A stretch of 37,303 bases of DNA, from positions 1 to 37,303 of the IMG/VR virus record IMGVR_UViG_3300036782_000155; one strand, written 5' to 3'. Both the position numbers and the translations under genes were made by a program. Shown here piece by piece: positions 1,597 to 37,303 of this stretch. Numbering within the stretch: position 1 is the first letter of the stretch; every line of letters starts with the position of its first letter. Origin of the DNA: a virus. Under the pieces are notes generated by a model. That model saw nothing but the letters and a program-made list of their open reading frames with translations, ran no database searches and was not told the origin of the DNA.

Positions 1597-1797
1597 ATGG
1601 CCTCAGCAGCCTGCCGTCGCATTGCACCAGCGCCCGCGCTCACACTCGAAGTCCACACCGAACAAAACCCGCGCCCGGCCACGCTTCACCAGGTCTGCCG
1701 CGATTTAGAGCAGCTCTGCGAAATGGGCCTGCTGGAAGCCTTTCGCGATGAGTACAACATCGTGCGCTATCGGACTACGGGCGCCAAGCTCGTATGA
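1597..1797 (+). CDS. Small winged-helix-like protein
   Basis: 66 aa, with a good Shine-Dalgarno GGAGG 12-16 bases upstream of the ATG. The C-terminal half (DLEQLCEMGLLEAF then a YRTTG turn) has the same pattern as the end of the preceding ATPase (ELDKLAEMGFLTKE then YRTVSG). It therefore looks like the recognition-helix-plus-wing half of a winged helix, either a truncated paralogue of that tail or a partner protein. Its stop overlaps the next start as ATGA, suggesting translational coupling. It is too short for a complete winged helix, so DNA binding is only inferred. Confidence 0.6.
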   Translation: MASAACRRIAPAPALTLEVHTEQNPRPATLHQVCRDLEQLCEMGLLEAFRDEYNIVRYRTTGAKLV

Positions 1798-2054
1798 ATC
1801 CCGATCGCATAAGTTTGACTTCGACTTCGCCGACTGATCGTGGCCCGGTCGGCGTCGAGGACGGCGTGCAACGTTCCCCCGTCGTCGCCGTCCTCAATCT
1901 CCCGGTGGAAGACATGCGCTGGTGCGCTACCTGCGGCCGCGAGGAGTGCTTCGTCGCATTTCTGGAGGGAGCTGCCGGACGCATCGGCTCCTGCTTAGGA
2001 TGCGGCGAGATTTCGTTTGTCCCATTCACGCGCGCGACGACGGAGGTTGCCTGA
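1794..2054 (+). CDS. Small zinc-ribbon-like protein
   Basis: 86 aa, starting in an ATGA overlap with the previous gene. Two Cys pairs (CATC near residue 44 and CLGC near residue 69), separated by about 21 residues, form a likely treble-clef or zinc-ribbon site. The first 35 residues are Ser/Thr/Pro rich and probably disordered. No enzymatic motif is visible. It is one of several small CxxC proteins in this operon. The function is unknown; metal binding is inferred from Cys spacing only. Confidence 0.6.
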   Translation: MNPDRISLTSTSPTDRGPVGVEDGVQRSPVVAVLNLPVEDMRWCATCGREECFVAFLEGAAGRIGSCLGCGEISFVPFTRATTEVA

Positions 2055-3846: not shown

Positions 3847-4229
3847 GCACAGACGAGGAAAATATTTCGGTCGAACTGACTGACCAGAATGAATTGCATT
3901 GCTTCAAGCTGATTTTCCGCGCGAAGCACGAGAACTTGGGCGAACGATTGCCGCTCGAAATTTTTCTGCACACGCGGCAAGCCTTTGACCTGTTCCACAA
4001 ACTCGGACTGAAGCTGATGGATTATTTCTCGCTTCACTCGCTTGATCTGCTGAAGAAGTTGGGCGAGAGGGACGAGATGCGGCGATTGCTGGAAGCGGCA
4101 TCGCATGGCCTCCGCAGTTATCAGTACGGGAATGCGGCGACCGATCCGGCAAAAGATATGGCTGACTCGATTGACCGTTTCCTAAACACAGGCGAGCCGC
4201 AAACGTTGGAAGGAAGGGCGGCACGATGA
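3843..4229 (+). CDS. Hypothetical protein, 128 aa
   Basis: GTG start coupled to the previous stop. The N-terminal 45 residues are beta-like (ISVELTDQNELHCFKLIF, a plausible short sheet). They are followed by LEIFLHTRQAFDLFHKLGL and further amphipathic helices, and a polar tail. No catalytic or metal motif is seen and no family is recognised. Codon use matches neighbouring genes, and both ends overlap neighbours by four bases, so it is very likely expressed. Confidence 0.6.
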   Translation: MSTDEENISVELTDQNELHCFKLIFRAKHENLGERLPLEIFLHTRQAFDLFHKLGLKLMDYFSLHSLDLLKKLGERDEMRRLLEAASHGLRSYQYGNAATDPAKDMADSIDRFLNTGEPQTLEGRAAR

Positions 4230-4657
4230 ACGCCTTCGCTCTCCAACCCTTCGGACCGCCTGCCCCATGCGGTTTTCCGCGCTGCACGCTGACTGCATTT
4301 CACGATGGCGATCACCAGTTCCCTGCTCCCAAGCCCGGCCTGGTGCAGCCTAAGTTCGATCAGCATTGCGTCGTTTGCGGACAGCCCTTCACCGTCTACG
4401 CTCCACCCAACTTCCCGAAATATGAAGTGCATCGCACCTGTGGGAAGGAAGAATGTTTGCTTCATCTGGCTCGCCACGATGCGCAGCCAGTTCCACAAAT
4501 GTGCCGCTGCCCACAGCGCGACTATCCGCACGAGCTGGCGATCCACACGCAACTCCGCAGTGAATCGTTCAATCCCGCGTTTCGCTATCGCTGGCCCTGG
4601 TCGCTAATGCTGTCGCTGCGCGAAGAGCCGAGCACGGAAAGGCGGCGGGATGCCTGA
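4226..4657 (+). CDS. Cys-rich putative zinc-binding protein
   Basis: 143 aa, ATGA-coupled. Cys/His groups: CGFPRC with downstream HDGDH, CVVC (about residue 50), CGKEEC (about residue 72) and CRCPQ. The CVVCGQPF and RTCGKEEC pairs resemble a zinc ribbon; the first group, CxxxxC followed by HxxxxH, resembles a small knuckle. No enzyme motif is visible. Together with the genes at 1794, 4650, 4886 and 5571 it belongs to a battery of small metal-binding-like proteins in the early operon. Function unknown. Confidence 0.6.
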   Translation: MNAFALQPFGPPAPCGFPRCTLTAFHDGDHQFPAPKPGLVQPKFDQHCVVCGQPFTVYAPPNFPKYEVHRTCGKEECLLHLARHDAQPVPQMCRCPQRDYPHELAIHTQLRSESFNPAFRYRWPWSLMLSLREEPSTERRRDA

Positions 4658-4889: not shown

Positions 4890-5173
4890 AAGCGAGAACC
4901 GCGCATTGCAAATTCTGCGGTTGCACCGATCGCCGTAGCTGCGCGATCCCGATGCGCTACGAGCCGACTCCGGATGACCCCGGCCTGCTCGAATCGTTTG
5001 GCGACGAATATCCCATCGTTCTGATGCCGGCGGGAAGCGTCGCGGAGTTCACCACACCCTGCCATTGGATCGCTCCCGACATTTGCTCGGCGCCGGCATG
5101 CGTCGAAAAAGCCTATCGCGAACGCTGCGCCTGGATGGATGCGGTGATTGCTGCCGAGTTGGAGGCCGCATGA
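4886..5173 (+). CDS. Small CxxC protein, 95 aa
   Basis: ATG at 4886 in an ATGA overlap. It opens with HCKFCGCTDRRSC, a knuckle reminiscent of phage proteins that start with a C-x-x-C-G-C-T motif. Further on it has TPCHWIAPDICSAPAC. The C-terminal helix is acidic. The Cys-CHW-C spacing suggests a second metal site. This start removes the out-of-frame-looking N-terminus that a longer reading would add. No known function. Confidence 0.6.
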   Translation: MKARTAHCKFCGCTDRRSCAIPMRYEPTPDDPGLLESFGDEYPIVLMPAGSVAEFTTPCHWIAPDICSAPACVEKAYRERCAWMDAVIAAELEAA

Positions 5174-5247
5174 CGCAGTACCTGGTCAATTGCGCGCTCG
5201 GTGTGCTCTGGATTTTGTGGATCGTATACCGGCTGATGAATTCCTAG
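5170..5247 (+). CDS. 25-aa single-helix membrane peptide
   Basis: ATGA-coupled to the previous gene. The product is 25 aa, and almost all of it (residues 4-22) is hydrophobic with Trp residues at the interface, so it is a one-pass membrane peptide if made. It is immediately followed by the Flp pilin gene. Peptides this small can be chance reading frames; the support is the overlap, the hydrophobicity and the neighbours. Confidence 0.45.
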   Translation: MTQYLVNCALGVLWILWIVYRLMNS

Positions 5248-5268
5248 CCGGAGAAAGGAGAAACTCTC

Positions 5269-5424
5269 ATGCTGAAGAGACTTTGGAACGACGAGGCTGG
5301 TCAGGACATGGCCGAATACGCCGTGATGCTGGCCGTGATCCTTGTCATCGTCGTGGGCACGATCCGTCTGGTCGGATCGGACACCAACATGCTGTTCTCG
5401 CAGACTGTCAGCGCCATGCAGTGA
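5269..5424 (+). CDS. Flp-family type IVb pilin
   Basis: 51 aa, ATG at 5269 with AAGGAG 9-14 bases upstream. The sequence runs MLKRLWNDEAG then QDMAEYAVMLAVILVIVVG. This is the classic Flp prepilin layout: a short charged leader ending in Gly11, the probable prepilin-peptidase cut, then mature residues Q1 to E5-Y6 (the diagnostic Glu-Tyr pair) leading into one hydrophobic helix, and a short polar tail. Flp pilins build Tad pili on the cell surface. No Tad assembly, prepilin peptidase or secretion ATPase gene is present here, so it would need the host's system. A pilin in a phage early operon is unusual. Confidence 0.85.
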   Translation: MLKRLWNDEAGQDMAEYAVMLAVILVIVVGTIRLVGSDTNMLFSQTVSAMQ

Positions 5425-5460: not shown

Positions 5461-5574
5461 GTGACGCGAATGGAAACCGGAGTAACGCTGATCTTCGCTT
5501 TTGTCGGCGGAGTTTTCGCGGGGATTGGGCTATACGTGGTATTGGTAGTTGCGAAAGGGGCGGGCCTCGAATGA
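5461..5574 (+). CDS. 37-aa single-helix membrane peptide
   Basis: I chose the GTG at 5461 because AAAGGAG lies 7-13 bases upstream; an ATG at 5425 directly after the pilin stop would add 12 residues. Residues 8-31 form one hydrophobic helix rich in Gly and Val. It ends ATGA-coupled to the next gene. Together with 5170-5247 and the pilin it forms a run of three tiny one-helix membrane proteins; whether they act together is unknown. Confidence 0.5.
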   Translation: MTRMETGVTLIFAFVGGVFAGIGLYVVLVVAKGAGLE

Positions 5575-6101
5575 GCGCTAATAACTCGCCACGACATTTC
5601 GAGTGGACGTTTTCAACGCGAATCCGCGAACGTGATTGCCGGCGCTGCAAGGCCAGCACATCAGCTTTTTTGACAGACATGCGCACTGGCGTGCGCTATC
5701 CTTTTTGTTCCCGATGTTTTTTCACGGCCGTCAAGTCCGTTAGTGGACTTAGCTCGACAGTGCTCAATCTGACCGGAGGAGTTTCAAAGATGAAAAACGC
5801 AATCTATCGCCAAGGCGATGTTCTGATTCGGCGTATCCAGAGCCTGCCGACGCAAACGGCTCAACCGCGGCTGACCGGCATACTCGCCTACGGCGAAGTG
5901 ACGGGACATGCTCACAAGATCGAGAACCTGAAAGTCGCCGAGGTTCTCGAGATCGAGAACGGTCTTTACCTGCGAGTAGGAGAAGAAGGCGTTCGCGTCG
6001 TCCATGAAGAGCACGCTGCGATCACTCTTCCGGCCGGCAACTACGAAGTCGAGATCCAGAAGGAATACACGCCGGCGGAGATCCGCAATGTCGCAGACTA
6101 G
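5571..6101 (+). CDS. Long form: CxxC domain fused in frame to the RQGDVL protein
   Basis: From the ATG at 5571 (ATGA overlap) the frame is open for 176 aa. The first 73 residues carry two Cys pairs (CRRC, then CSRC about 23 residues later), a probable zinc knuckle. The second part is the conserved protein described at 5790-6101. No stop separates them, so either a fusion protein is made, or the internal start at 5790 gives the short form, or both are made. A 6-bp hairpin (5733-5750) lies between the two parts. Confidence 0.5.
   Translation: MSANNSPRHFEWTFSTRIRERDCRRCKASTSAFLTDMRTGVRYPFCSRCFFTAVKSVSGLSSTVLNLTGGVSKMKNAIYRQGDVLIRRIQSLPTQTAQPRLTGILAYGEVTGHAHKIENLKVAEVLEIENGLYLRVGEEGVRVVHEEHAAITLPAGNYEVEIQKEYTPAEIRNVAD
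5790..6101 (+). CDS. Conserved RQGDVL-type protein (short form)
   Basis: 103 aa from an internal ATG preceded by GGAGGAG at an ideal distance. The pattern IYRQGDVLIRR, LAYGEVTGHAHKI, LYLRVGEEGVRVVHEEHA, LPAGNYEV, KEYTPAEIR is, from memory, a widespread unnamed family of about 100 aa that nearly always starts at this Met. It is often followed by a protein with the C-terminal domain seen in the next gene. It is all-beta in appearance, and conserved His residues (TGHAH, HEEH) could bind metal. The function is not established. It overlaps the next gene by 14 bases. Confidence 0.75.
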   Translation: MKNAIYRQGDVLIRRIQSLPTQTAQPRLTGILAYGEVTGHAHKIENLKVAEVLEIENGLYLRVGEEGVRVVHEEHAAITLPAGNYEVEIQKEYTPAEIRNVAD

Positions 6102-7359
6102 GCCACCCTCCGTTCTCGATCGCTATGTGGAAGCCTGCAACTATCCTGGCAGGCTCGATGAATCCGCGGTCGAATCGGAGCTGCGGCGCTATCTTCGGGC
6201 GCTCGGCGTGAAGCGGGAAATCGTGCGCCTTCGCGAAGGCTGGACTCTCGCGGAACATCCGCCGCTGGTGAAGTATGTAGGCGAGATCCTGGATAGGATC
6301 TCGACGGCCGCCCGCGACGCCCTCGACGCCCGCGACGCCCTCGACGCCCGCGACGCCCGCGACGCCCTCGACGCCCTCGACGCCCGCGCCGCCCGCGCCG
6401 CCCTCGACGCCCGCGCCGCCCTCGACGCCCGCGCCGCCCTCGACGCCCGCGCCGCCCGCGCCGCCCTCGACGCCCGCGACGCCCTCGACGCCCGCGACGC
6501 CCTCGACGCCCGCGACGCCCGCGCCGCCCGCGCCGCCCTCGATGCCCGCGACGCCCGCGCCGCCCTCGACGCCCGCGCCGCCCTCGACGCCCGCGCCGCC
6601 CTCGACGCCCTCGACATTCCGTTCCGCGGCGATGCAGCTTCGCTGCATCGCCTTGCAGCCTGGTGTATTCAAGTCGGCGGCTGGGGCTGGTGGAGATTCG
6701 AGTTGAGCTGGATCGCGTCGACTCACGTCGGCGCGCAACAGCTCAACTCTCCGAAGTCAGTACAGTCCTGGACTGAACCCATCTTTGAAGCTTTCCTCGC
6801 CGGCGCCTGGTTTCTTCATTGGACCGAAAGCACTCTGTACTGGGTTGCGAAGCCAGGGGTTCACGTAGAGGAGACTGCCAACGGCCGACGCCTGCATAAT
6901 TCCGAGGCCGCCGCGATCCGCTCGGACATCGAGAACCTCTATTTCTGGCACGGCGTGATGGTGCCGGCATTCGCCGTGGTGAAGCCGGAGTGGATCACGC
7001 TCAAACACATCGCCGATGAGACGAACGCGGAAGTGCGCCGCGTATTCATCGATCGCTATGGGCTGACTCGCTATCTGATCGACAGCGGAGCCAAGAAGAT
7101 TGCCGAGGACGAGTTCGGAGAACTCTATCGCGCCGAACTCGATGGTGACGAGCCGTTGGTGATGGTGAAGGTGATCAACTCAACTCCGGAGATGGATGGC
7201 AGCTCGAAGCCGTATTTCCTGCGCGTGCACCCGGAAATTAGGCCGCTGATGAACGCTGGCCTTGGCGATGAGCAGAAACCGACGCCGCTGAATGCTGTCG
7301 CGTCAACCTTCGGAATGACTGGCGAACAATATCTGAAGAGGCTCGTCGCTCAGACTTGA
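6088..7359 (+). CDS. Repeat protein: [D/A]A[R/L] tandem repeats plus conserved C-terminal domain
   Basis: 423 aa from the ATG at 6088 (GGCGGA upstream). Three parts are visible: a helical N-terminus (1-73); 34 perfect triplets of Asp/Ala-Ala-Arg/Leu (residues 74-175); and a conserved Trp-rich C-terminal region (about 180-423). That last region contains YFWHGVMVPAF, VKPEWITLKHI, EVRRVFIDRYG and a DEPLVMVKVINSTPE segment, which I recall as the DUF6745-type domain (name unverified). In databases this domain commonly sits beside the RQGDVL protein, as here. The repeat block would form an Ala-rich helix with alternating charge. The function is unknown. Its 3' end overlaps a convergent gene by 57 bases. 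Confidence 0.75.
   Translation: MSQTRPPSVLDRYVEACNYPGRLDESAVESELRRYLRALGVKREIVRLREGWTLAEHPPLVKYVGEILDRISTAARDALDARDALDARDARDALDALDARAARAALDARAALDARAALDARAARAALDARDALDARDALDARDARAARAALDARDARAALDARAALDARAALDALDIPFRGDAASLHRLAAWCIQVGGWGWWRFELSWIASTHVGAQQLNSPKSVQSWTEPIFEAFLAGAWFLHWTESTLYWVAKPGVHVEETANGRRLHNSEAAAIRSDIENLYFWHGVMVPAFAVVKPEWITLKHIADETNAEVRRVFIDRYGLTRYLIDSGAKKIAEDEFGELYRAELDGDEPLVMVKVINSTPEMDGSSKPYFLRVHPEIRPLMNAGLGDEQKPTPLNAVASTFGMTGEQYLKRLVAQT
6307..6612 (+). repeat. 34 x 9-bp tandem repeat, coding
   Basis: Unit G[A/C]C-GCC-C[G/T]C repeated 34 times without interruption, 306 bp. Only two of the nine positions vary (A/C at position 2 and G/T at position 8), apart from one GAT for GAC at 6541. 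Such purity indicates recent expansion by slippage or unequal crossing-over. The block is open in several frames on both strands. Confidence 0.97.
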
Positions 7360-9379: not shown

Positions 9380-9475
9380 GGGGCTGATTTTCGCCAGCCG
9401 GCGAGGGCCTGCGACCGATGTGCAGTCACGCGCGCAATTCCGCAGCAAACGATTTTTTTTCAATTGGGGAAAAAT

Positions 9476-10012
9476 ATGGGCGCTAAGGGATCCGGTGGTC
9501 ACAACAAAAAGCCATCGAAGCTCAAAGCGATCCAGGGCAACGCCGGCAAGCGCAAGATTAATCATCGCGAACCGAAGCCTACACCAGGCATCCCACTGAT
9601 GCCGGCACACCTAGCGAAGGACCCAGTCGCAAAAGCGAAGTGGAAGGAGCTGGTGCCGATCTTGAATCGCATGGGCGTGCTGACAACCGCAGACGGTGAC
9701 GGCCTGGCTGCTTACTGTGCGCTGTTCTCGCAGTGGGTCAAGTGTGAGGCCGCGATTCGGAAGCTTGGCATGTTCACCGCTGACGTCGATGAGACCAGTG
9801 GCCTAGCGAAGATCAAACAGAATCCAGCGGTGCGCGTGAAGGCAGATACGCTTCGCCTCATGCGTCAATTTGAAAACGAATTCGGCCTTACGCCAGCGGC
9901 GCGCTCAAATCTGAGCGTCGGCCAAGGTCGGGATCTCGAGCCAGATGTTAAAGCACAAGACGCACTTCAAAACTTCATCGACCGAAAGCCTGTTAGCGCG
10001 CGCACACAATAG
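9476..10012 (+). CDS. terS: Terminase small subunit, P27 family
   Basis: 178 aa. I chose the ATG at 9476 (GGGGAA 5-10 bases upstream) over a TTG at 9464. The Gly/Lys-rich basic start (MGAKGSGGHNKKP) and the APHLAKDP-like segment (AHLAKDPVAKAKWKELVP) identify the family. So do the LTTADGDGLAAYC and SQWVKCEAAIRKLG helices and the FENEFGLTPAARSNL box. The small subunit recognises phage DNA and regulates the large subunit at the start of packaging. Its end overlaps the large subunit by 68 bases in another frame. Confidence 0.93.
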   Translation: MGAKGSGGHNKKPSKLKAIQGNAGKRKINHREPKPTPGIPLMPAHLAKDPVAKAKWKELVPILNRMGVLTTADGDGLAAYCALFSQWVKCEAAIRKLGMFTADVDETSGLAKIKQNPAVRVKADTLRLMRQFENEFGLTPAARSNLSVGQGRDLEPDVKAQDALQNFIDRKPVSARTQ

Positions 10013-11786
10013 CACGCCGGCAGTGGCGCGCTATTGTCTCGACGTCCTCACCGGTAACATCCCTGTCGGGCGCCTGGTCTTCCTCTCGGTCGAACGCCAC
10101 GTCCGCGACCTGATTGAAGGCCAAAAGCGCGGACTGTGCTATGACGATGCAGCCGCGGCTTATGTCATCGAATTCTTTGAAAACTTCCTGGTCTTCGCGG
10201 AGGGCGAGCACGCCGGAAAGCCGTTCATTCCGTCGCCCTGGCAGCAATTTGTTCTTGCAATGTTGTTCGGCTGGAAGACGGCCGATGGCTTTCGCAGGTT
10301 CCGGACGGCCTATCTTGAGATCGGCAAGGGGAACGGCAAATCCCCGCTGGCGGCCGGAATTCTGCTCTTTATGCTCATCGCCGACGGCGAAGAGAGCGCG
10401 GAGATATACTCGGCCGCGGTCACGAAAGACCAGGCGAAGATTCTTTTCCGCGATGCGGAAAATATGCGGACCGCGTCGTCTTGGCTTCGCCAGAAGATCG
10501 CTGCCCACCGCAATAATCTCTCCGTTGCGTCGACCGCCTCATTTGCGCGGCCGATTTCTTCTGAGAAGCGCGGCCTTGATGGCAAGCGCGTCCACTGCGC
10601 TCTGATCGACGAACTGCATGAGCACCCGAGCGATGTTGTTGTGAACAAGATGCGCGCTGGCACTAAGGGGCGCCGGCAGGCACTCATCTTCATGATTACA
10701 AATTCGGGATTCGATCGCGAAACCGTCTGCTATTACCAGCATGAGTATTCGAGGAAGGTCCTCGATGCGATCATCGAGGCCGACGCGCACTTCGCCTATG
10801 TCTGCCACCTCGATGCCTGCGAAGAATGCCAGGCGAACGGCTACACCCAACCGAAAGAAGGCTGCAACAACTGCGACAGCTGGCTTGACCAGGACGTCTG
10901 GATCAAGGCCAATCCGAATCTGGGCGTCTCGATCGGGGTGAAGTATCTGGACGAGCAAGTACAGGAGGCCGTCGCGATGCCTTCTAAGGAAGGGATCGTC
11001 CGGCGTCTGAATCTTTGCTTCTGGACGCAGGGGGAGAAGCGCGCGATCGGCGCTGTTGCCTGGGCTCGCTGCAGCGGTCTGGCACGAGAAGAGGATCCTG
11101 TTGCCTGGCGTGCTCGCCAGTTCGAGCAACTACGCGGACGCAACTGCGGCGCCGGGATGGATCTGGGATCGACCGATGACATGACGTCCGTTGTCTATTT
11201 TTTCGATCGCCAGCCTGGTGTGGCAAAACCGATAGTTCTGCCGTTCTTTTACGCGCCGGAAGAGAGCGTAGCCCTCCGCACGCAGCGCGATCGAATCCCT
11301 TATGAGATGTGGCGACAGCTTGGCTTTCTGAAGGTCACTCCAGGCCAGGTGCGCGACGACGACTTTATCCGCAAGGATATTAACGACTGCGCGCGGCTCT
11401 TCAATGTGAAGGAACTGCGTTTCGATCCGCATCGCGTCCTATTGCTTTTGAACCAATTGCAAGGCGATGGATTCAGCGTGGAGAGCAACGCGCACCGGAA
11501 TCGACTGGAAGGCCATCAGCAGGGCTTTATTTCGATGCACGACCCGACGAGTCGCGTTCTTACCATGATCAAGAATGGCGACTTCGAGCACGGCAACAAC
11601 CCCGTACTGACCTGGATGGCGGATAACCTGGTCATCGTCGCCGACGCAGCCGGAAATCAGAAACCGGTGAAGCCCTCGAATCCAAGTTCTCCGAAAAAGA
11701 TCGACGGCATGGTTGCTTTCATTCTAGCCACGGCAGCCATGGATGCCCATCCCGTCACCGCGCGGCCTCGAGTCCACGTCGTATGA
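9945..11786 (+). CDS. terL: Terminase large subunit
   Basis: 613 aa, Terminase_1-type. Walker A is GKGNGKS (127-133) and Walker B is ALIDELHEH (219-227, D222-E223). The nuclease domain begins with GAGMDLGSTDD (D406) and ends with the usual KIDGMVAFILATAAMD segment. This motor-nuclease pumps DNA into proheads and cuts it. Odd feature: residues 287-310 hold five Cys (CHLDACEEC, then CNNC) between the ATPase and nuclease domains, a likely zinc knuckle replacing the usual acidic loop. The first 25 residues lie in the overlap with the small subunit and the start is uncertain; the next candidate is GTG at 10023, without a ribosome site. Confidence 0.95.
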   Translation: MLKHKTHFKTSSTESLLARAHNSTPAVARYCLDVLTGNIPVGRLVFLSVERHVRDLIEGQKRGLCYDDAAAAYVIEFFENFLVFAEGEHAGKPFIPSPWQQFVLAMLFGWKTADGFRRFRTAYLEIGKGNGKSPLAAGILLFMLIADGEESAEIYSAAVTKDQAKILFRDAENMRTASSWLRQKIAAHRNNLSVASTASFARPISSEKRGLDGKRVHCALIDELHEHPSDVVVNKMRAGTKGRRQALIFMITNSGFDRETVCYYQHEYSRKVLDAIIEADAHFAYVCHLDACEECQANGYTQPKEGCNNCDSWLDQDVWIKANPNLGVSIGVKYLDEQVQEAVAMPSKEGIVRRLNLCFWTQGEKRAIGAVAWARCSGLAREEDPVAWRARQFEQLRGRNCGAGMDLGSTDDMTSVVYFFDRQPGVAKPIVLPFFYAPEESVALRTQRDRIPYEMWRQLGFLKVTPGQVRDDDFIRKDINDCARLFNVKELRFDPHRVLLLLNQLQGDGFSVESNAHRNRLEGHQQGFISMHDPTSRVLTMIKNGDFEHGNNPVLTWMADNLVIVADAAGNQKPVKPSNPSSPKKIDGMVAFILATAAMDAHPVTARPRVHVV

Positions 11787-33927: not shown

Positions 33928-34380
33928 ATGGCCATCAACTGTCTCGAAGACCAGCTCCGCCGCGATGAGAGCGAGCGGCAATTCGCCTACGACGACGCCA
34001 CGGGAAGAACTTTGGGTAAAGGCGATCGGCTCCAGGCAAATTTAACGATCGGCGTCGGCCGCAACCTGAGCGCGAAAGGCTTATCGCAAAAAGAGCGCGC
34101 ATATCTTCTGGCCAACGACATTGCCGACGCCACAGCGGACCTCGCGGCCCATCTGCCCTGGGCGCTCGAACTCGACGATGCACGCAAGGGTGCGATGCTG
34201 AACCTCGTCTTCAATATGGGCATTAGGGGTGTGATGGGCTTCCCGAAATTTCTAGCGGCGATGCAGGCGGGCGACTGGGCGACGGCCAAGGCCGAGTTGC
34301 TCGACTCCGAGGCCGCGCGCCAGGAGCCGGATCGCATCGATCGCCTCGCGCTGCAAATCGAGACTGGATTCTGGCAATAA
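33928..34380 (+). CDS. Endolysin, T4-type lysozyme (GH24)
   Basis: 150 aa with AGGAG about 13 bases upstream. Comparison with T4 lysozyme by eye: RRDESE gives the catalytic Glu (E14), YDDATG the Asp (D23) and LTIGVGR the Thr (T40). LNLVFNMGIRGVMGFPKFLAAMQAGDW matches the T4 helix region, and the end ETGFW matches the T4 GTW end. It cuts the peptidoglycan glycan strand at lysis. No signal peptide is seen, so a holin is needed. The His after GIG in T4 is Arg here. Confidence 0.9.
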   Translation: MAINCLEDQLRRDESERQFAYDDATGRTLGKGDRLQANLTIGVGRNLSAKGLSQKERAYLLANDIADATADLAAHLPWALELDDARKGAMLNLVFNMGIRGVMGFPKFLAAMQAGDWATAKAELLDSEAARQEPDRIDRLALQIETGFWQ

Positions 34381-36514: not shown

Positions 36515-37303
36515 TTGAAAGCCCCAGTCTCACTCACATTCGAAGAACTCCTCGCAGTGTTGGGGAAGGCGAGAGAGCGCCGGCTGCGCGACTGGGTCAT
36601 GCTTTTGTTTCTCGTGTGGCACGGGCTGCGCGCGAGTGAACTCGTTCAATCAAGCACGCGCCAGGCGGGATTATTCTTCACGCGCGAGAAAGCAGAAAGG
36701 CGACGTGCAGAGATTGGCGCGGCCGCAGCCGTGACCGAGGTGACACGCCGGATACAGGGAAAGCCGAGGATCTGCTTCCTGGTTACCACCGAGCAGCCGA
36801 TTACGCGGTCGGGCATGACCTACGGGTCCGTCGTCGGCGGTGAGGTCGAAGTGCAGCGACTGAAGCGATCGCTGAAGACCACCCAAGACCTGCATGAGCA
36901 CGAGAACGAACTCCTGAACGAGCGCAAGGCCTGGTCGCAGTGGCTGCGCGAGGCGCCGCGGAGAGGCAAAAAAGGGGCGGCCCGGGGCTGTTTGCCGGAA
37001 GTGCAACAAAATGTGATTTTGTCGCATTTCCAGGCCTCGGAGAGCGTTTTTCGGATCAGTCGAAGCCAACTGTGGCGGATCTGGCGACGCTACGCGACCG
37101 AAGCCGGCCTTCCGCCCAGGAAGAGACATCCGCACTGCGCGAAACACACCATTGCGACGCTTCTCGTCGATGCCGGTGTTCCGTTACCAAAGATTCAGGT
37201 CCACCTGGGACACGCATCGCTCGCATCGACGGGAAAGTACACATTGCCGCGCGAGGATGAAGTGTCCCGCGCCGTCGGCAAAGCGATCGGCTCGCTGATG
37301 TAG
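36515..37303 (+). CDS. int: Tyrosine recombinase (phage integrase), catalytic domain only
   Basis: 262 aa from a TTG (no earlier start before the terminator). The protein begins at the catalytic domain, with no N-terminal core-binding domain. Catalytic residues by eye are HGLRASEL (R39), RLKRSLKTTQ (K116), HPHCAKHT (H207, K210, H211), LGHASLASTGKYT (H233, Y242). The second Arg of the R-H-R set is Lys here; I recall the same KHS/KHT form in Acidobacteriota integrases. Residues about 45-100 are an insertion between the Arg-I helix and the beta hairpin. It would integrate or excise the phage by recombining att sites. It ends on the last base of the window. Confidence 0.85.
   Translation: MKAPVSLTFEELLAVLGKARERRLRDWVMLLFLVWHGLRASELVQSSTRQAGLFFTREKAERRRAEIGAAAAVTEVTRRIQGKPRICFLVTTEQPITRSGMTYGSVVGGEVEVQRLKRSLKTTQDLHEHENELLNERKAWSQWLREAPRRGKKGAARGCLPEVQQNVILSHFQASESVFRISRSQLWRIWRRYATEAGLPPRKRHPHCAKHTIATLLVDAGVPLPKIQVHLGHASLASTGKYTLPREDEVSRAVGKAIGSLM

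Follow-up and report, generated by a model that had tools for sequence, protein, structure and literature searches.

A Flp/Tad-type pilin gene in a tailed prophage of Terriglobia and its possible role in altering the host Tad pilus

Flp pilins in cells and in phages

Tad pili are used for attachment to surfaces and for biofilm formation, and phages adsorb to them; blocking of pili by phages from within the cell is known. Flp/Tad major pilins, including Caulobacter PilA and the solved Tad pilins 8u1k and 8u2b, share a G-x4-E-Y motif, a single helix and a mature form of about 40 residues. In Caulobacter, the Glu at +5 and the Tyr at +6 hold the filament core together; assembly depends on them, whereas expression and processing do not (PMC11067988). 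In Agrobacterium fabrum, two pilins encoded at separate loci can replace each other (cited in PMC10934763). Orphan Flp pilins, such as Sinorhizobium smc02446 and those of Terriglobia, are encoded by lone chromosomal genes away from a tad locus.

Flp pilins have been listed as adhesion factors in the Vibrio harveyi prophages phi345 and phiGANI1709 (PMC12482185), and one has been annotated in a phiLM21-like prophage of Sinorhizobium meliloti (PMC12429752). Like the pilin described here, these are located inside tailed prophages, a likeness by annotation; they are known by annotation or virulence-factor matches only, and they belong to other hosts and other pilin subfamilies. No functional study of phage-borne Flp pilins was found in the literature searched. 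A likeness can also be proposed to Gp05 and Aqs1 of the Pseudomonas phages D3112 and DMS3, respectively. These small proteins target the type IV pili of the host and keep other phages out (PMC11436027), but both bind the PilB motor and neither is a pilin subunit.

The pilin gene described here was found in a 37,303-nt stretch of viral DNA (IMG/VR record IMGVR_UViG_3300036782_000155, positions 1 to 37,303), hereafter called the window. Its product shares the motif, the single helix and the mature length of the Flp/Tad major pilins, including the one of its own host, whereas the gene sits in a phage in which no assembly gene was found. It resembles the orphan pilins in being a lone gene away from a tad locus, but it lies in a phage gene module instead of a chromosomal setting. 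We consider it very likely that the gene is a phage-encoded, selectively kept Flp pilin. Coordinates of the pilin gene and of other features of the window are provided in Table 1.

Table 1. Positions of the pilin gene and of other features in the window
Feature	Position	Strand	Remarks
P-loop gene (GQTQEAGKTT), 516 aa	1..1551	+	63% identical gene precedes pilin in phage L089
Small Cys-rich protein gene	1794..2054	+	collinear L089 homologue, 41% over 58 aa
Cys/His-rich protein gene	4226..4657	+	collinear L089 homologue, 25% over 182 columns, E 2e-10
25-aa ORF, one hydrophobic stretch	5170..5247	+	directly upstream of pilin; unmatched in L089; candidate gene
Shine-Dalgarno AAAGGAG	5254..5260	+	8 nt before ATG of pilin; read from sequence
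Flp/Tad prepilin, 51 aa	5269..5424	+	cleavage predicted after G11; helix begins at residue 8
37-aa ORF (GTG start), one hydrophobic stretch	5461..5574	+	directly downstream of pilin; unmatched in L089; candidate gene
Terminase small and large subunits	9464..11786	+	start of structural module
Tyrosine integrase	36515..37303	+	marks temperate phage; chromosomal flanks in host genome G323

The pilin, its prophage and the host

The predicted product, MLKRLWNDEAGQDMAEYAVMLAVILVIVVGTIRLVGSDTNMLFSQTVSAMQ (51 aa), consists of a leader running to G11, the residues Q-D-M-A-E-Y, a single helix and a short tail, so that G11, E16 and Y17 of the G-x4-E-Y motif fall at positions -1, +5 and +6. AlphaFold predicted one helix spanning residues 8-50 (mean pLDDT 82); a Foldseek search with this model returned zero matches, which is a weak test for a single helix. 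The prepilin layout claimed in the initial annotation is borne out by these residues, by the predicted helix and by relatives in tad loci, and the strong ribosome site reported there is present at the positions given in Table 1.

Relatives of the pilin were encoded at a minimum of 394 cellular loci, the best being about 74-76% identical, and the ORF is therefore not a chance reading frame. Across the best 80 of these relatives, all labelled Acidobacteria, identity ranged from 63 to 76% in a set that was fetched by using peptide patterns and is biased to conserved cores. Genes of a tad locus were in reach at 16 of the 80 fetched loci and not at 64, with some loci ending at contig ends; the closest cellular relatives were orphan copies outside tad loci. 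A family profile built from 26 relatives matched the solved pilins 8u1k and 8u2b (E about 4e-10). The Pfam model Flp_Fap (PF04964) scored the window pilin at 15.7 bits (E 0.013), below its gathering cut-off of 32.2. Given that the host's own Tad-locus pilin also fails (16.6 bits), as does every acidobacterial relative scored, this cut-off is uninformative for the subfamily. Searches of PHROGs and NCBIfam with the pilin gave sub-threshold or irrelevant matches only.

Nucleotide differences between the window pilin and two host paralogues (11/6/23 and 14/6/29 at first, second and third codon positions) or the copy in phage L089 (13/7/22) were in excess at third positions, with dN of 0.17-0.30 and dS of 0.70-1.72. 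The initial annotation had held that the joint lack of an Flp profile match and of reading-frame conservation would speak against a pilin; what was found was this third-position excess and dN below dS.

The prophage itself was located by scanning 399 Terriglobia genomes. It was found in a 5-Mb genome (G323), to which the window is 100% identical over 30.8 kb and 99.9% identical over the left 6.45 kb, and where it is flanked on both sides by chromosomal genes; the IMG/VR contig is hence confirmed by a second assembly. As the initial annotation had suggested checking, the host does possess Tad genes: G323 carries a full tad locus in the order flp-rcpC-rcpA-tadZ-tadA-tadB-tadC (named by gene order, homology across genomes, and P-loop and T2SSF matches), two A24 prepilin peptidases and three orphan pilins in addition to the prophage pilin. 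The pilin of this tad locus (contig C4, position 343301) is 65% identical to that of the window. In five other Terriglobia genomes (G001-G005) pilins numbered 4-12 per genome; most lay elsewhere, with at least one close to tadBC. In each of the six genomes one relative of the window pilin lies near tadBC. A large set of orphan pilins outside the tad locus was observed in these six genomes.

The window has the gene set of a temperate tailed phage (terminase, portal, protease, head protein, connector, tape measure, tail fibre, lysozyme and integrase), and the pilin gene is embedded among phage genes, as a phage accessory (moron) gene would be, with small genes before it and the terminase further on in the integrated prophage. 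The description of this region as an early operon holds to the extent that a plus-strand run of small genes precedes the head module, gene order alone being its basis. A promoter search near the pilin gene gave no match, and the gene is therefore probably transcribed together with its neighbors. A search of the window for a T2SSF platform gene was negative and scanning of its larger ORFs revealed no pilus family, in keeping with the earlier statement that pilus assembly genes are absent.

The P-loop protein at the left end of the window was considered as a candidate pilus motor; it had no match in Pfam or PHROG, its predicted model had a pLDDT of 34, and its motifs are presumably HerA/FtsK-like. 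Homologues of this gene were observed in phage L089 (63%) and on a contig of a further genome, G113 (42%). G113 lacks both this Flp type and the TadBC pair, which would fit dependence of the phage pilin on a host Tad system, although this is one case and the contig is a candidate relative only. An array in which an 18-bp unit is repeated in tandem (about 17 copies, encoding Ala/Arg/Asp/Leu repeats) was also noted at 6309-6615, inside a gene at 6088-7359 that holds DUF6745 as well; in the G323 copy of the prophage the array is about 162 bp (9 units) shorter.

Pilins in other viral contigs

The same early module was found in only one other phage, L089 (46 kb), in which the P-loop gene, two small Cys-rich genes and the pilin (63% identical) are collinear with those of the window. 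The terminase and head genes of L089 have no similarity to those of the window. Between the two pilins dN was 0.25 and dS 0.70, and the third-position excess had a p of 0.017. They were paired in a DNA tree (aLRT/bootstrap 71.5/87) and not in a protein tree, both trees being of low resolution at 51 codons. A terminase-based search for close relatives of the prophage recovered two short contigs, both without the early region, and prophages with an about 40% identical terminase had no pilin beside it. Searches of an isolated-phage collection with the window pilin and with an approximate Caulobacter PilA sequence gave no match.

Four large-phage contigs (L091, 455.7 kb; L092; L093; L094, 463 kb) carry a pilin in a shared neighborhood that comprises some ten or more homologues (mostly at 30-70% identity), including a clamp loader and a weak endolysin match. 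The phrog_2 profile detected a terminase in L091 and L094 (E about 1e-8), and searches of the giant contigs for tail-sheath and PF03237 were negative. The four pilins form one clade (aLRT/bootstrap 96.4/98 for DNA and 86.9/94 for protein). Across their core, dN was 0.07-0.17 and dS 1.1-2.7 (dN/dS about 0.05-0.11), and the pilin is under purifying selection inside this large-phage lineage. Hosts of these giants can be predicted solely from the kinship of their pilins.

Pilins were also present beside a tail gene in a 102-kb viral contig (L090, terminase E 8e-33), beside the terminase in L095, and in L004, where terminase-like genes were judged by eye only. Proteobacterial-type Flp probes, three approximate sequences that show presence in viral contigs and not exact kinship, detected pilins in 28 further viral contigs, at least 8 of which share genes, some near-identical (L151, L155, L157, L158 and L160-L163). 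In this group the pilin was about 0.9-3.4 kb from the large terminase gene in all three contigs tested, and dN/dS was about 0.05-0.4. Carriage of Flp pilins by phages is therefore recurrent. The suggestion that similar copies are spread among related prophages needs correction: close relatives of this prophage do not share the pilin widely, the only phage found with the same early module was L089, and recurrence was seen in unrelated phages, including giants.

One contig was excluded from the count of phage copies. L003 has two similar pilin genes (1066-1212 and 4415-4564) flanking a terminase-like remnant, with host-like genes at both ends; it seems to be a contig of host DNA that retains part of a terminase, possibly the trace of a phage or element that inserted next to a pilin gene.

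Possible effect on the host pilus

Glu at +5 and Tyr at +6 were kept in all eight phage pilins examined, which argues for assembly into filaments; the pilin of L090 has Ala in place of Gly at -1. Five residues of the window pilin (M14, D38, M41, L42 and V47) were unseen in 80 distinct cellular pilins, 79 of which have two or fewer such private residues themselves. All but M14 lie in the C-terminal part (38-47), the region in which the window pilin mainly differs from its cellular relatives. In Caulobacter the C-terminal part of the pilin extends outward, and phage PhiCb5 contacts N43, K48 and T51, equivalent to residues 40, 45 and 48 of the window pilin, which the unseen residues adjoin. The Caulobacter natural variants N43R and T51A go with loss of PhiCb5 adsorption. 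The large-phage clade has unseen residues of its own: I46 and K49 in all four pilins and S40 in three. The C-terminal changes may also be drift.

Since the changes spare the assembly core and affect the C-terminal half that faces outward, the most likely effect would be a changed pilus surface. We propose that a temperate tailed phage may have taken a Terriglobia-type Flp prepilin gene from an acidobacterial genome and kept it; a host A24 prepilin peptidase would cut the product after G11, and the host Tad machine would incorporate it into the Tad pilus of the host, either alongside the host subunits or in their place. Competing Tad-binding phages would then adsorb less well, a superinfection exclusion by receptor modification. 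To our knowledge, no Tad-binding phage of Acidobacteria has been described. Expression, processing, incorporation and the effect on adsorption are predicted from sequence, and the chain as a whole, although favored over the other readings considered, is put forward tentatively, as possible but a little short of probable. Most simply, the phage pilin would assemble like an ordinary subunit and alter the surface of the filament. The presence of pilins in giant phages points to use in productive infection, not in lysogens alone. That unrelated tailed phages, from a 37-kb temperate phage to giants of 455-463 kb, might repeatedly have taken and retained Flp pilins to form chimeric Tad pili with a changed surface, as a form of receptor editing by supply of the receptor's subunit, is a more doubtful proposal.

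Other roles would fit parts of these data. In a form of lysogenic conversion, an extra orphan pilin could raise or change Tad piliation; attachment or aggregation of lysogens or infected cells would then improve, or the receptor used by the phage itself would be kept available. Terriglobia keep 4-12 pilins, most outside the tad locus, and extra pilins therefore seem useful to cells; the V. harveyi prophage pilins, moreover, have been listed as adhesion factors (PMC12482185). The giant-phage copies may be hard to explain by a benefit to lysogens, and no separate promoter match was found near the pilin. A benefit of attachment to lysogens is possible for the window phage and less so for the giants, and overall we regard this role as unlikely. 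The variant subunit could also, in excess, clog or cap the Tad machine, lowering piliation and excluding other phages. It would then resemble the pilus-blocking proteins of D3112 and DMS3, but by way of subunit mimicry; there are established examples of phage proteins that arrest the assembly of type IV pili (PMC11436027), and the phage pilin departs from cellular pilins at positions that these conserve. Such a poison would, however, be free to lose the assembly residues, all of which are kept and under purifying selection, and this explanation is unlikely.

Chance capture of a host orphan pilin that has no function for the phage is quite unlikely. Capture as such is likely, given the many pilins that host genomes hold; orphan copies are the closest cellular relatives, and the more distant prophages have no pilin beside the terminase. 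The third-position excess between the window and L089 copies speaks against a mere passenger, as do the strong purifying selection and conserved synteny in the large-phage clade, where a passenger is most clearly disfavored; for the window lineage the argument is one phage comparison. The two small hydrophobic ORFs that flank the pilin might suggest a membrane protein of lysis or membrane takeover, with a function similar to that of a holin and not of a pilin. A holin would not be expected to be highly identical to tad-locus pilins and to retain every residue for processing and assembly, the flanking ORFs are unmatched in L089, and the lysozyme gene is far off at 33928-34380, which makes such a function very improbable.

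If the phage pilin is built into the host pilus as proposed, phages that supply such a subunit would have a simple means, unlike those known, of editing a receptor or adhesin at the cell surface. Because Tad pili serve attachment, biofilm formation and phage adsorption, phage pilins would link the prophages that a cell carries with its adhesion and its resistance to phages. Genes of this type are easily missed, being shorter than 60 codons and, in Acidobacteria, under the Pfam cut-off. Acidobacterial Tad-locus pilins (L069, L018 and the host pilin) scored about 17-21 bits on PF04964 against its gathering score of 32.2, and annotation relying on that score will therefore miss them.
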